A stretch of 64,000 nt of DNA from Amycolatopsis thermophila (GTDB lineage Bacteria; Actinomycetota; Actinomycetes; Mycobacteriales; Pseudonocardiaceae), in contig NZ_JAUSUT010000001.1 of NCBI RefSeq assembly GCF_030814215.1, forward strand, positions 806,001-870,000. Direction: 5' to 3'. Made by a program: the position numbers and the translations under genes. Positions 11,167 through 23,965 of this stretch are shown in pieces. The notes under the pieces are model-generated. The model had not been told where the DNA came from. It saw only the letters and a program-made list of their open reading frames with translations, and did no database searches. Each line of letters begins with the position of its first letter. Within the stretch, counting starts at the first letter, position 1.

Positions 11167-12774
11167 TCAGCCGCGCAGGCTCTTGTGCACCAGGGCGTCG
11201 CACAACGCGAGCCAGCTGGCCTCCACGATGCTGCCGTGCACGCCCACCGTCGTCCATTCCCGGTCGCCGTCGCTGGAGTTCAGCAACACGCGGGTGACCG
11301 CGTCGGTCCCCGGGTGGCTGGGCAGGATGCGGACCTTGTAGTCGGCCAGCTCGACAGTGTCCAACCAGGACAGCAACGGCGACAGCGCCTTGCGCAGGGC
11401 GGCGTCCAGCGCGTGCACGGGGCCGTTGCCCTCGGCGGTGGCGATCACCCGTTCACCCTTCACGTGCACCTTCACCGTCGCCTCGGAGATCACCTCGCCG
11501 TCGCTGCGGTGGTCCAGCACGACCCGGTAGGACTCGAGCGTGAACGGCGGCTCGGCCGGGCCGTCGACCTCCTGGCGCAGCAGCAGTTCCAGCGAGGCGT
11601 CGGCGGCTTCGAACGACCAGCCCTCCGCCTCCAGCCGCTTGACCTTCGTCACCGCGTTGGTGACCGCGTCAGGCCGGCCGGCAAGGTCCACCCCGAGCTC
11701 ACGTCCCTTGAGCTCGAGACTGGCCCTGCCGGCCATCTCGGTGACCAGGACCCGCATGTCGTTGCCGACGGAGGTTGGATCGATGTGGTTGTACAACAAC
11801 GGATCCACCTTGATCGCACTCGCGTGCAGCCCCGCCTTGTGGGCGAAGGCCGAAGCCCCGACGTAGGCCTGGTGGGTGTCGGGGGCGATGTTCGCGATTT
11901 CGGCAAGGGCATGGGAGACGCGGGTCAGCTCGGCCTCGGCCCCGGTCGGGAGCACGTCCATGCCGAGCTTGGTCACGAGGTTTCCCGTCACGGCGAACAG
12001 ATCGGCGTTGCCGGCCCGTTCCCCGTACCCGTTCGCGGTGCACTGCACGTGCGTCGCGCCGGCCTGGACCGCCGCGATGCTGTTGGCCACCGCGCAGGAC
12101 GTGTCGTCCTGGCAGTGGATGCCGAGCCGGAACCCGGTGCGGCCGGCTACCTCCCGCACCGTGTCGGCGATCCCGAGCGGCAACTGGCCGCCGTTGGTGT
12201 CGCACAACACGACGACGTCCGCACCGGCGGTCGCGGCGGCGTCGAGCACGCGCAGCGAGGTGTCCGGGTCGAAGGCGTAGCCGTCGAAGAAGTGCTCGGC
12301 GTCGAGGAAGACGCGGCGGCCCTCGCCGACCAGGAAGGCGACGGTGTCGGCCACCATCGCGCAGGCCTCGTCGACGTCCACCCGCAGGGCCCGCTCGATG
12401 TGGCGCCGGTCGGACTTCGCGACCAGTGTGATCACCGGCGCCCGCGAGTCGAGCAGCGCGCGCACCTGCGCGTCCTCGGCCGCGGTCGTCCCGGCCTTGC
12501 GGGTCGAGCCGAACGCCACCAGCGCCGCGTGCTTCAGCGTCAGCTCACCCGCCGCCGCGCGGGCGAAGAACTCGGTGTCCTTCGGCAACGCGCCCGGCCA
12601 GCCGCCCTCGATGAAACCCACCCCCAGCTCGTCGAGCAGCCGCGCGACCGCGAGCTTGTCCGCCACCGAGTAGGAAACGCCCTCGCGCTGAGCACCGTCC
12701 CGCAACGTGGTGTCGTACAGGTGGAAGTCGTCACCGAGCGGCAGTCCGGCGGGTTCCGTGCGGGTCACGGTCAT
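11167..12774 (-). CDS. cimA: citramalate synthase
   Basis: CimA, 535 aa, condenses pyruvate and acetyl-CoA to (R)-citramalate, the threonine-independent entry to isoleucine synthesis. LeuCD and LeuB, encoded nearby, would carry out the next steps. The N-terminal HMGL-like TIM barrel has YDTTLRDGAQREG (20-32) and the metal and substrate residues GIHCQDDTSCAVAN. The C-terminal part (about 390-530) is the LeuA-type allosteric dimer domain. Length and domain order fit CimA better than isopropylmalate synthase. Upstream lies a leader peptide with three consecutive isoleucine codons and an intrinsic terminator, strong evidence for isoleucine-responsive attenuation. Confidence 0.94.
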   Translation of the reverse strand: MTVTRTEPAGLPLGDDFHLYDTTLRDGAQREGVSYSVADKLAVARLLDELGVGFIEGGWPGALPKDTEFFARAAAGELTLKHAALVAFGSTRKAGTTAAEDAQVRALLDSRAPVITLVAKSDRRHIERALRVDVDEACAMVADTVAFLVGEGRRVFLDAEHFFDGYAFDPDTSLRVLDAAATAGADVVVLCDTNGGQLPLGIADTVREVAGRTGFRLGIHCQDDTSCAVANSIAAVQAGATHVQCTANGYGERAGNADLFAVTGNLVTKLGMDVLPTGAEAELTRVSHALAEIANIAPDTHQAYVGASAFAHKAGLHASAIKVDPLLYNHIDPTSVGNDMRVLVTEMAGRASLELKGRELGVDLAGRPDAVTNAVTKVKRLEAEGWSFEAADASLELLLRQEVDGPAEPPFTLESYRVVLDHRSDGEVISEATVKVHVKGERVIATAEGNGPVHALDAALRKALSPLLSWLDTVELADYKVRILPSHPGTDAVTRVLLNSSDGDREWTTVGVHGSIVEASWLALCDALVHKSLRG

Positions 12775-12815
12775 CTCCTATGCGGTGGTGGGAGGCTTCT
12801 CGGGCAACAAAAAAA

Positions 12816-12835
12816 CCTCCCGCGGATGCGAGAGG
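12816..12835 (-). terminator. cimA attenuator terminator
   Basis: On the minus strand CCTCTCGC pairs with GCGGGAGG (8 bp, one G-U) around ATCC, followed immediately by seven U (12809-12815). It lies 28 nt after the leader-peptide stop and about 35 nt before cimA. An upstream hairpin (GTGTCCG-CAT-CGGACAC, extended by GCGCGCC/GGCGCGC) forms the alternative fold expected of an attenuator. Confidence 0.88.
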
Positions 12836-12863
12836 TCTGCGCGCCAGGTGTCCGATGCGGACA

Positions 12864-12908
12864 CTACCCGGCGCGCCTGCCGATAATGATCACGGCGAAA
12901 GAAGCCAT
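12864..12908 (-). CDS. cimA leader peptide (attenuator)
   Basis: A 14-codon reading frame encodes MASFAVIIIGRRAG. The run Val-Ile-Ile-Ile (GTG ATC ATT ATC) is what a branched-chain amino acid leader needs to stall ribosomes when charged tRNA-Ile is scarce. It is followed by a nested hairpin and a terminator with a U7 tract before cimA. A promoter reading TTGCCC, 18-nt spacer, CATGAT ends 6 nt before the ATG, so the leader is probably translated from a leaderless message. An overlapping frame (MMRLWLLSP, starting 15 nt upstream) also exists. The isoleucine-rich frame fits the biology better. No experimental evidence is available here. Confidence 0.82.
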   Translation of the reverse strand: MASFAVIIIGRRAG

Positions 12909-12948
12909 AGCCGCATCATGCCACACCGCCGCCCGGCGGGGCAAAAAT

Positions 12949-12990
12949 GCGGTGAAGGCCACCCCCGGGACCGGGGATGGCCTTCACCGC
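12949..12990 (-). terminator. leuB terminator
   Basis: GCGGTGAAGGCCA and TGGCCTTCACCGC arms (13 bp) plus four further C-G pairs form a long hairpin after the leuB stop. On the minus strand it is followed by ATTTTT. It separates leuB from the cimA promoter, whose -35 element starts just beyond. Confidence 0.88.
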
Positions 12991-13001
12991 GGGGAAAACG
13001 A

Positions 13002-14045
13002 TCAGCCGACGGCCCGCGTGTTCGACGACACCAGCGCCGCCAGGCGGTCGCCGATCGCCTGGGTGGTGCCCGGGTTCGCCTGGTCGCGGGTGGCCAGGTC
13101 GAACGCGACGGACGCCTCGATCCGGCGGGCCGCCTCGCGCTGGCCCAGGTGGTCCAGCAGCAGCGACACCGACAGCACGGCGGCGGTCGGGTCGGCGATG
13201 CCCTGCCCGGCGATGTCCGGCGCGCTGCCGTGCACCGGCTCGAACATGCTCGGGTTGCGGCGGGTGATGTCCAGGTTGCCGCTGGCCGCCAGGCCGATGC
13301 CACCGGTCACCGCGGCCGCCAGGTCGGTGATGATGTCGCCGAACAGGTTGTCGGTGACGATCACGTCGAAGCGGGACGGGTCGGTGACCATGTGGATCGT
13401 CGCGGCGTCGACGTGCGAGTAGGAGACCGTGACCTCCGGGTGCTCGAGCGACACCTCCTCCACGATCCGCGACCACAACGAGCCGGCGTGCAGCAGCACG
13501 TTGGTCTTGTGCACCAGCGTGAGGTGCTTGCGCGGCCGCTCCTCGGCCCGCTTGAACGCGTCGGACACCACGCGGCGGATGCCGAACGCGGTGTTGACGC
13601 TCACCTCGGTGGCGATCTCGTGCTCGGTGTCCTTGCGCAGCAGACCACCGTTGCCCGCGTACGGGCCTTCGGTGCCCTCCCGCACGACGACCATGTCGAT
13701 CTCGGCGTTCGAGTCGGCCAGCGGGCCGCGCACGCCCGGGTACAGCTTGGCCGGGCGCAGGTTCACGTGGTGGTCCAGCTCGAACCGCAGGCGGAGCAGC
13801 AGGCCCCGCTCGAGGATGCCGCTGGGCACGGTCGGGTCGCCGACCGCGCCCAGCAGGATCGCGTCGTGCTGCCGGAGCTCGCCCAGGACCGACTCGGGCA
13901 GCAGCTCGCCGGTGGCGTGCCAGCGGGCCGCGCCGAGGTCGTAGTTCGTGTACTCCACGGTCGGGGCGACCTCGCCGAGTACCTTCAGGGCCTCGGTGAT
14001 CACTTCGGGACCGATCCCATCACCTGGGATCACCGCGAGCCGCAT
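13002..14045 (-). CDS. leuB: 3-isopropylmalate dehydrogenase
   Basis: LeuB, 347 aa, oxidatively decarboxylates 3-isopropylmalate with NAD; in the citramalate route it also acts on the methylmalate intermediate. Visible motifs are the N-terminal [11 protein letters not shown] (5-15), [13 protein letters not shown] around 132-144, the metal site in [18 protein letters not shown] and the NAD site in [18 protein letters not shown]. Start ATG 14045 has GGAGGTG upstream and gives the family's [10 protein letters not shown] start; a longer frame beginning at 14135 adds 30 residues of non-family sequence. It is upstream of cimA but separated from it by a terminator and promoter. Confidence 0.97.
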
Positions 14046-14213
14046 CAGACACCTCCGTCGATCAGGGCCACGGGGCTCGTTGCGCACCCGTTTGCCCACA
14101 TACTCCAGCGACGGCAGGTTACCGGCTGTCGCCAACGGACCGAAGCGGCACCACCCTTATGACGGAATCTCCCGACAAGTGAGACACCCGGATGGCGGAT
14201 TGAGCCCGGATGT

Positions 14214-22106: not shown

Positions 22107-23965
22107 TGCGAAACCTCGTCGTCTTCGAACAGCGGGCGGATGCCGCGTGCGGCCATGATCTCGTCGTTGCCGGTGCCCGCGGCCACCATGGGCCACACCT
22201 GGGCGTCCTTGCCGACCACGAAGTCGATCACGACGGGCCGGTCGTTGATCTCCATCGCGCGGCGGATGACGTCGTCGACCTCGTCCTTGGTCTCGCAGCG
22301 CAGCCCCGCGCAGCCCAGCGCCTCGGCCAGCAAGGTGAAGTCCGGGATGCGGTGCTTGTGCGTACCCAGGTCGGTGTTGGAGTACCGCTCGGCGTAGAAG
22401 AGGTTCTGCCACTGCCGGACCATGCCGAGGTTGCCGTTGTTGATGACGGCGACCTTGATCGGGGCGCCCTCGATGGCGCAGGTGGCCAGCTCCTGGTTGG
22501 TCATCTGGAAACAGCCGTCGCCGTCGATGGCCCACACCTGCTTGTCCGGCACGCCGAACTTGGCGCCCATCGCGGCCGGGACGGCGTAGCCCATGGTGCC
22601 CAGGCCGCCGGAGTTGAGCCAGGTGCGCGGGTTCTCGTACTTGATGAACTGCGCGGCCCACATCTGGTGCTGGCCCACGCCCGCGGCGTAGACGGCGTCC
22701 GGGCCGACGATCTGGCCGATGCGCTCGATGACGTACTGCGGCGACAGCGTGCCGTCGGTGGGCCACTCGTAACCGGCCGGGAAGGTCTGGCGCCACGAGT
22801 CGACCTGCGTCCACCACGGCTTGAGGTCGGGCTCGCCGATGCGGTCGGTCTCGGCCTTCACCGCGTCGATCAGCTCGGTGATGATCTCGGCGCAGTCCCC
22901 CACGATCGGCACGTCGGCCTTGCGGTTCTTGGAGATCTCGGCCGGGTCGATGTCGGCGTGGACGACCTTGGCCTCGGGCGCGAACGACGACAGCTGGCCG
23001 GTGACCCGGTCGTCGAAGCGAGCGCCCAGTGCCACCAGCAGATCGGCGCGCTGCATCGCGGCGACCGCGGCGACCGACCCGTGCATGCCCGGCATGCCCA
23101 GGTGCTGGGGGTGGGAATCGGGGAACGCGCCGCGGGCCATCAGCGTGGTGACCACCGGGATGCCGGTCAGCTCGGCCAGTTCCTTCAGCTGCGCCGACGC
23201 CTGGGCCTTGATCACGCCACCACCGACGTAGAGGACCGGGCGGCGGGCCTGGGCGATCAGCCGCGCAGCCTCCCGGACCTGCTTGCCGTGCGGGCGCAGC
23301 GTCGGCCGGTAGCCCGGCAGGTGCATCTCCGGCGGCCAGGAGAACGAGGTCTGCTCCTGCAGCACGTCCTTCGGGATGTCGACCAGGACCGGGCCGGGAC
23401 GGCCGGTGGAGGCCAGGTGGAACGCCTCGGCGATCGTGCGCGGGATGTCCGCCGGATCCGTGACGAGGAAGTTGTGCTTCGTGATCGGCATGGTGATGCC
23501 GCAGATGTCGGCTTCCTGGAAGGCGTCCGTGCCGATCAGCGGACGGGTCTGCTGCCCGGTGATCGCGACGACCGGCACCGAGTCCATGTTCGCGTCCGCC
23601 AGCGGCGTGACCAGGTTCGTCGCGCCGGGGCCCGAGGTCGCCATGCAGACCCCGACCTTGCCGGTGGCCTGCGCGTACCCGGTGGCGGCGTGCCCGGCGC
23701 CCTGCTCGTGCCGGACCAGCACGTGCCGCACCTTCGTCGAGTCCAGAAGCGGGTCGTACGCCGGAAGGATCGTGCCGCCCGGGATGCCGAAGACCACCTC
23801 GACGCCCATCGCCTCGAGCGACCGCACCAGCGACTGCGCCCCGGTCACCCGGACCGGCGTGCCGGCGGGCGGGGCGGGCTTGGGGCGGTTGCCGAGCTGG
23901 GCGGGCGACGCGGCGGCCGGAGTTCCTCCGGGTTTCGTGTCCGATCGCGACGTGGCGCTTGTCAT
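22103..23965 (-). CDS. ilvB: acetolactate synthase large subunit
   Basis: IlvB, 620 aa, is the thiamine-diphosphate-dependent catalytic subunit that makes acetolactate or acetohydroxybutyrate. After an N-terminal tail rich in Pro and Ala (about 38 residues, usual in actinobacteria) come the pyrimidine-binding domain with the catalytic glutamate in [14 protein letters not shown], the central FAD-binding domain, and the pyrophosphate site [12 protein letters not shown] with downstream NNGN. ATG 23965 is chosen; the frame stays open 60 codons further but crosses the attenuator. It heads the ilvBNC operon. Confidence 0.96.

Follow-up and report, generated by a model that had tools for sequence, protein, structure and literature searches.

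Leader attenuators of branched-chain genes in actinobacteria

The closest described systems are the C. glutamicum ilvBNC attenuator, with its leader peptide IlvL (MTIIRLVVVTARRLP), and the Corynebacterium ilvB-II motif; both, as at cimA, have a leader with branched-chain codons (PMC11857589, PMC10272879). In the sections of these papers covered here, the ilvBNC upstream ORF runs over a first hairpin, a second hairpin followed by a U run serves as terminator, and starvation lifts termination (PMC11857589, PMC10272879), while transcription of ilvB starts one nucleotide from the leader start codon (PMC11857589). The element described below shares this arrangement of uORF, first hairpin and terminator, but in C. 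glutamicum the target is ilvB and the control codons are those for valine and leucine, whereas here the target is cimA and the codons are for isoleucine only (PMC11857589). Lying upstream of cimA and not of ilvB, it would function like an ilvB-II/ilvBNC attenuator without being filed as one.

Short leaderless leaders with hairpins and a U-rich stretch, again as predicted for cimA, are described for S. lividans ilvL (MRTRILVLGKRVG), leuL and trpL, and Table 4 of that work, in the portion covered here, holds eight leaders (alaS, ilvBHC, thrS, trpS, leuS, leuA, trpE and metNIQ), none of them before cimA (PMC8079986). In a survey of 20 actinobacterial genomes, Seliverstov and others place leaders at trp, cys, ilvB, leuA, trpS and leuS and find T-boxes upstream of ileS; the portion covered here describes the other amino-acid pathways as lacking conserved structures (PMC1262725). 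It also reports that substitution of the regulatory codons in the S. coelicolor ilvB leader left regulation unaffected (PMC1262725), a result that, by analogy, may serve as a warning for leaders of the cimA build. The covered portions of these two actinobacterial surveys list no cimA leader (PMC1262725, PMC8079986). An attenuator before a citramalate synthase gene was not known to the original prediction, and we likewise found none described in the open-licence full texts searched; where citramalate was mentioned in these texts together with a leader peptide, an attenuator or a uORF, the contexts were unrelated. The kind of attenuator is known, and its cimA target and its reach appear to be new.

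The cimA leader and its hairpins

In the 64-kb window (the whole stretch of DNA analysed), cimA occupies 11167..12774 on the minus strand, as do all features given below, and encodes a citramalate synthase of 535 aa (NCBIfam TIGR00977, 577.6 bits against a cut-off of 450); a candidate Shine-Dalgarno sequence, AGGAG, picked out by eye at 12775..12779, abuts its ATG. The cimA product provides a threonine-independent entry route into isoleucine synthesis. Since an IlvA-type threonine dehydratase is encoded in the same genome as well (TIGR01127, 426.8 bits against a cut-off of 378.75), the two routes to 2-ketobutyrate, cimA and IlvA-type, could be distinguished by their regulation. The gene upstream of cimA is leuB, for 3-isopropylmalate dehydrogenase (13002..14135, bounds from a mechanical ORF list; NCBIfam NF002898, 581 bits against a cut-off of 393). 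Between leuB and the cimA promoter lies a leuB terminator with a 19-pair stem and T5 (12949..12990); because leuB is thus closed off by a strong terminator of its own, cimA probably has its own start and forms a separate transcription unit, in keeping with the proposal that its control is separate from that of leuB.

We read positions 12908-12809 as a ribosome-mediated attenuator of cimA transcription that would sense charged tRNA-Ile, to which we assign a probability of roughly 0.87; on this evidence from sequence comparison and folding, cimA is very probably switched on when isoleucine is short. A 14-codon leader with three consecutive isoleucine codons had been predicted and is found at 12864..12908, as the ORF MASFAVIIIGRRAG. 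Its isoleucine trio, ATC ATT ATC, lies at 12882..12890, and the 64-kb window contains a single copy of ATCATTATC, against an expectation of 0.01. Hairpin 1 (1:2; 12839..12876), a nested hairpin in the original prediction, pairs strand 1 (GCGCGCCGGGT, 12876-12866) with strand 2 (ACCTGGCGCGC, 12849-12839) and contains the end of the leader together with its stop codon. The terminator hairpin (3:4; 12813..12838), in which GACCTCTCGC at 12837-12828 pairs with GCGGGAGGTT at 12823-12814, abuts hairpin 1, and the base pairs of the two do not overlap. In a compact reading the terminator has the predicted stem of 8 bp (11 pairs when the basal G-U and A-U are counted) and the predicted U7 run (12809..12815), but it does not stand directly before cimA, whose start at 12774 lies 34 nt past the U run. 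The 104-nt segment has a folding energy of -53.4 kcal/mol; 200 dinucleotide shuffles average -35.2 (sd 3.2), none of them being as good, which gives a z of -5.6. Three terminator-like matches, the cimA terminator among them, occur in 12700-13050, where 0.3 (sd 0.5) are expected.

The conservation of these parts was followed in the best 80 of the 573 stretches confirmed as cimA in one scan, mainly from Amycolatopsis, Prauserella, Saccharomonospora, Kibdelosporangium, Actinophytocola, Actinokineospora, Lentzea and related genera, a sample skewed to close relatives. The comparison that the original prediction called for shows, across these Pseudonocardiaceae, that the isoleucine codons, the two stems and the U run have been conserved, and that the stems covary. 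A counterpart of the leader, with at least two consecutive isoleucine codons and followed by a terminator of the same type, is present in 80 of these best 80 loci. Isoleucine stands at codons 1, 2 and 3 in 70, 80 and 79 of them, respectively, so that codon 1 is the least conserved of the three, being replaced by valine in 6, leucine in 3 and arginine in 1. On a quick tree of cimA proteins, with states for 54 of 55 rows (the remaining row had a near-empty translation), codon 3 switches 11 times between ATC and ATT through its third base; its first base changes once and its second base never, and the codon undergoes a single replacement by a non-isoleucine codon. Conserved DNA around unconserved codons had been named in advance as the pattern that would speak against an attenuator; the reverse was observed, with codon 3 changing synonymously and staying isoleucine. 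ATT makes up 111 of the 229 leader isoleucine codons, against 32 of 1072 (~3%) in the cimA genes, and in the same best 80 loci it occupies codon 2 in 78; a Fisher p-value for this enrichment was set aside, since it takes related loci to be independent. A rare codon at a control position would be compatible with slow decoding, and the covered sections of the C. glutamicum ilvBNC paper likewise emphasise conserved CUU and GUA control codons (PMC11857589). Because codon changes are synonymous, and because changes in leader length preserve the reading frame in the alignment of the named loci, we infer that the leader is probably translated.

The codons at the end of the leader appear to be held by the hairpin. 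Where RVG replaces RAG before the stop codon, strand 1 becomes GCGCGTCGG opposite CCGACGCGC, and where RAE does so it becomes GCGCGCCGAG opposite CTCGGCGCGC. Since the leaders of other lineages end immediately past the isoleucine codons (VIIIT or LIIIS, then stop) and the position of the hairpin is nevertheless unchanged, the RAG ending looks like a constraint on the RNA. The ending RVG of S. lividans ilvL, in the covered part of its description, resembles the RAG or RVG of the cimA leaders, where these residues are encoded by strand 1 (PMC8079986).

Both hairpins are maintained by paired changes. For 1:2 and 3:4 together, 99.3% of alignment cells are paired, as compared with 41-58% when the arms are slid against each other, and there are 23 double-change cells against 4.8 after shuffling, a number that none of 500 shuffles reached; these shuffles ignore the relatedness of the loci. 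Changes on both sides are seen in 7 of the 19 pairs of 1:2 and 3:4, and in 4 of the 9 consensus pairs of hairpin 1. Of five covariation measures, the number of further pair types (15 against 13.1) is the one that shuffles attain, in 45 of 500. A spacing of 5 nt separates strand 1 from the last isoleucine codon in 77 of the best 80 of 573 loci and in 25 of 31 loci from the class; the remaining 3 of the 80 have a spacing of 2 nt and a fourth isoleucine codon. In two U columns the 5′ arm of the terminator has undergone 0-1 changes on the tree and its 3′ partner 7-8. Because the 5′ arm is nearly frozen while the partner varies, this pattern suggests that the 5′ arm has a second pairing partner.

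Upstream of the leader, a candidate -10 hexamer, CATGAT, preceded by TGTGG, lies at 12915..12920, 6 nt from the leader start codon, and a weak candidate -35, TTGCCC, lies at 12939..12944 with an 18-nt spacer. Among 55 aligned named loci, the -35 candidate is absent from 13, the hexamer, which follows TGTGG, is in most cases CATGAT or a different hexamer of the CA type, with TTTCAT or TTTGAT in 5, and the leader starts with ATG in 37 and GTG in 18. Counted by pattern, the distance from hexamer to leader start is 6 nt in 28 of these loci, 7 in 23, 8 in 3 and 14 in 1, the 14 and some of the 8s being misregistrations of the pattern. The usual spacing between a -10 element and the start of transcription puts the latter at the leader start codon. 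With the hexamer 6-8 nt from the start codon in 54 of the 55 loci, a leaderless transcript is predicted, and the leader peptide is thus probably read from a leaderless mRNA. The predicted arrangement resembles that at C. glutamicum ilvB, with its start one nucleotide from the leader start codon (PMC11857589), and that of several S. lividans leaders (PMC8079986). Ten of the 31 class loci have a distance of 10 nt and two have none, and a few additional 5′ bases may be present on the transcripts of these loci. A scan for promoters of the E. coli type did not recover the proposed promoter, and its sole match was on the opposite strand. The probably leaderless leader, the weakness of codon 1, the class-wide reach of the element and the presence of an ilvB leader in the same window, both taken up below, go beyond what was originally predicted.

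A proposed switch and its alternatives

Attenuators of the enterobacterial trp and his type follow a three-hairpin logic of 1:2, 2:3 and 3:4 pairing. Set against these, the cimA leader looks leaderless and its hairpins abut; its stop codon stands at the edge of strand 1, and strand 2 lies beyond a ribosome at the stop codon. We propose that transcription would begin at the leader start codon or beside it and that a ribosome would load on the 5′ end of the RNA. When Ile-tRNA is plentiful, the ribosome would complete the leader and leave, 1:2 would fold, and the abutting 3:4 hairpin would terminate transcription before cimA. When it is scarce, the ribosome would stall with its A site on isoleucine codon 2 or 3, and its leading edge would mask strand 1, the start of which is 5 nt past the last isoleucine codon. 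Strand 2, thus released, would pair with the 5′ arm of the terminator in a proposed antiterminator (2:3; 12825..12845, with 7 pairs, a bulge, an internal mismatch and the loop ACCU at 12836-12833), and RNA polymerase would continue into cimA. Such a system is compact and conserved, and the position of the codons, the ribosome footprint and the register of the hairpins are all directly testable.

Folding computations place the switch at the isoleucine codons. RNA extending to the terminator loop was folded for 79 family loci, with the leader withheld up to the edge of a moving ribosome. The mean probability of 1:2 is 1.00 up to an edge 14 nt from the first isoleucine codon and falls to 0.24 at +19, 0.06 at +20 and 0.02 at +21, and in these folds strand 2, once free, pairs with the 3′ portion of the 5′ arm of the terminator. 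The first edge at which 2:3 rises above a probability of 0.5 is +17 or +18 for 63 of the 79 loci and 16, 19, 21 or 22 for another 8; the last 8 loci do not rise above it at any edge. With any single edge from +18 on, 62-84% of the family loci are above 0.5. The ribosome footprint extends ~15-16 nt from the P-site codon. An edge at +16 to +19 therefore corresponds to an A site occupied by isoleucine codon 2 or 3. These two codons are almost invariant, and the drifting codon 1 is the one at which hairpin 1 would remain intact. With the 3′ arm withheld and the edge at +12, the terminator 5′ arm pairs with other partners at a mean of at most 0.12 per base; at one base the alternatives reach 0.38 (edge 0) and 0.32 (edge +9), and some loci have minor upstream partners. 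A longer hairpin 1 that reaches into the 5′ arm of the terminator, on the pattern of the C. glutamicum boundary-trinucleotide model, was considered and set aside: a GG/CC pairing is present in the window and looked unconserved by eye.

The 2:3 pairing is much weaker than 3:4 and must therefore win kinetically. In this model, moreover, a ribosome that lingered on the stop codon would leave strand 2 exposed as well, so that termination in isoleucine excess requires fast release. In the alignment, 93% of 2:3 cells are paired as compared with 23-66% when slid, and among the aligned family loci 2:3 shows no covariation in excess of shuffles. In other families, 13-16 of 28 loci exceed a probability of 0.5 for 2:3 with edges inside strand 1, depending on the edge; the 28 were drawn from the 31 class loci after omission of three near duplicates, and in one (L158) the terminator was misplaced by the pattern. 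On this modelling we regard the 2:3 switch, as drawn, as moderately probable.

The strongest rival keeps a leader that senses Ile-tRNA and changes the read-out, which would depend on polymerase pausing, on partial displacement of the terminator in the manner of C. glutamicum ilvBNC, or on a factor. The absence of base pairs shared by hairpin 1 and the terminator would fit such a scheme, as would the moderate support for 2:3 outside the family. In C. glutamicum, moreover, the antiterminator is drawn otherwise, overlapping the terminator by a few bases, and in the covered sections of the ilvBNC paper the two share just a boundary trinucleotide (PMC11857589). On the other hand, 2:3 by itself, with no further factor, accounts for the sharp computed switch at isoleucine codons 2-3 and for a terminator in which conservation is one-sided and favours the 5′ arm, and although we take a different read-out seriously, we rather doubt it.

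An RNA bound by a protein or metabolite, with the leader untranslated (a LEU element of the leuA type, a T-box or a riboswitch), would accommodate the codon mutations in S. coelicolor ilvB/leuA that, in the covered portion of the survey, conflict with classical attenuation (PMC1262725). We consider it very unlikely, since synonymous codon changes are tolerated and a search of the 64-kb window at Rfam gathering scores returned two tRNAs only and no T-box, the sub-threshold matches at the site being unrelated. Less probable still is a plain terminator and hairpin that lower or insulate cimA expression downstream of a chance ORF, for although terminator-like hairpins are common between genes and one lies just after leuB, chance would have to account for isoleucine codons with synonymous change in 80 of the best 80 of 573 loci, the fixed 5-nt spacing from these codons to the hairpin, and the in-frame changes in leader length.

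Distribution of the element and similar leaders elsewhere

The attenuator reading is joined by a close linkage of the element to cimA. A covariance model of the element, R1, was searched in samples of family and class genomes. It matches 140 of 150 sampled Pseudonocardiaceae genomes, and the same 140 hold cimA by protein search (E <= 1e-100), the other 10 lacking both. In a class sample of 394 genomes R1 is found in 232 and cimA in 310: both in 224, cimA alone in 86, R1 alone in 8 and neither in 76. Among the matches listed for which cimA was also listed, 93 of 94 lie directly upstream of cimA on the same strand, at 2-213 nt (median 54), and the exception is at a contig end, where the adjoining gene resembles ilvE by eye. 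All 30 family loci and all 31 class loci that were fetched and checked by tblastn have cimA as the neighbour of the element. Twenty cimA upstream regions without a listed R1 match were inspected: 8 hold an isoleucine leader (II, III or IVI) with a GCGC-type hairpin, and 12 do not. A weaker R1 match is present in three of these 8 (G150, G196 and G361), and the 17 regions without any R1 match divide into 5 with an isoleucine leader and 12 without. The R1 count is thus an underestimate of the distribution, and true absences seem to exist as well.

Two records call for separate mention. A family genome (G096) has two cimA-like genes (81% and 72% identity) and one R1 match. A locus titled Rhodococcus rhodnii NRRL B-16535 (L057) has a cimA leader that is nearly Kibdelosporangium-like, and the record may be mislabelled.

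If the attenuator reading is true, the route to isoleucine that enters through citramalate and goes around threonine has an Ile-tRNA sensor of its own, apart from the ilvB attenuator, and such a sensor is present in a large share of Actinomycetes. The cimA leader would also be a possible handle for isoleucine production.

The same build recurs in the window before ilvB (22151-23845), which has its own leader at 24158-24111. There a promoter-like TTGACA-18-TAACGT-7-GTG would place the start of transcription at the leader codon, and the stop codon lies inside a hairpin that is abutted by a terminator with U6; in contrast to the cimA leader, the codons are mixed Ile, Leu and Val. At E 0.01, R1 does not match this ilvB leader and has one match in the genome.

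Elsewhere, weaker R1 matches precede other branched-chain genes, named by NCBIfam and Pfam, with fitting leaders. Before ilvB these end in RDLVIP (L178) or read PVVVVLIQRVA (L185) and LVVVRLRAA (L186), and at a fourth ilvB locus (L183) a Val-rich leader begins upstream of the start of the R1 model. Leaders before leuS, with a hairpin-terminator build like that of cimA, end in GFLLLIGPC (L189) and QLLLIEPR (L196), and further short Leu leaders before leuS read FLLLTKPC and LLLT; the L187 leader was read by eye, and L190 is named leuS by its resemblance to L189 only. A leuA leader ends in HLLLIESARH (L194). As a wider reading, which we hold tentatively, the cimA leader could be an old, class-wide isoleucine sensor in Actinomycetes that shows a 'footprint ruler' on a leaderless mRNA at its clearest; only the last two isoleucine codons would count, since from these alone would the ribosome edge reach strand 1, held at 5 nt, the design having been codon-swapped for ilvB, leuA, leuS and, in some lineages, a Leu/Val-dehydrogenase-like gene. 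If so, each branched-chain step would get its own tRNA sensor.

In a few family genomes a second element is present, with the leader MVFGLIIMCGAG or MSLGLIIIDGAG. At three loci (L191; L193, with a leader ending in GLIIMCGAG; and L195) the adjoining gene belongs to the Glu/Leu/Phe/Val dehydrogenase family, which one would not expect an isoleucine sensor to control, and the element at L192 was also grouped with those at L191 and L193.
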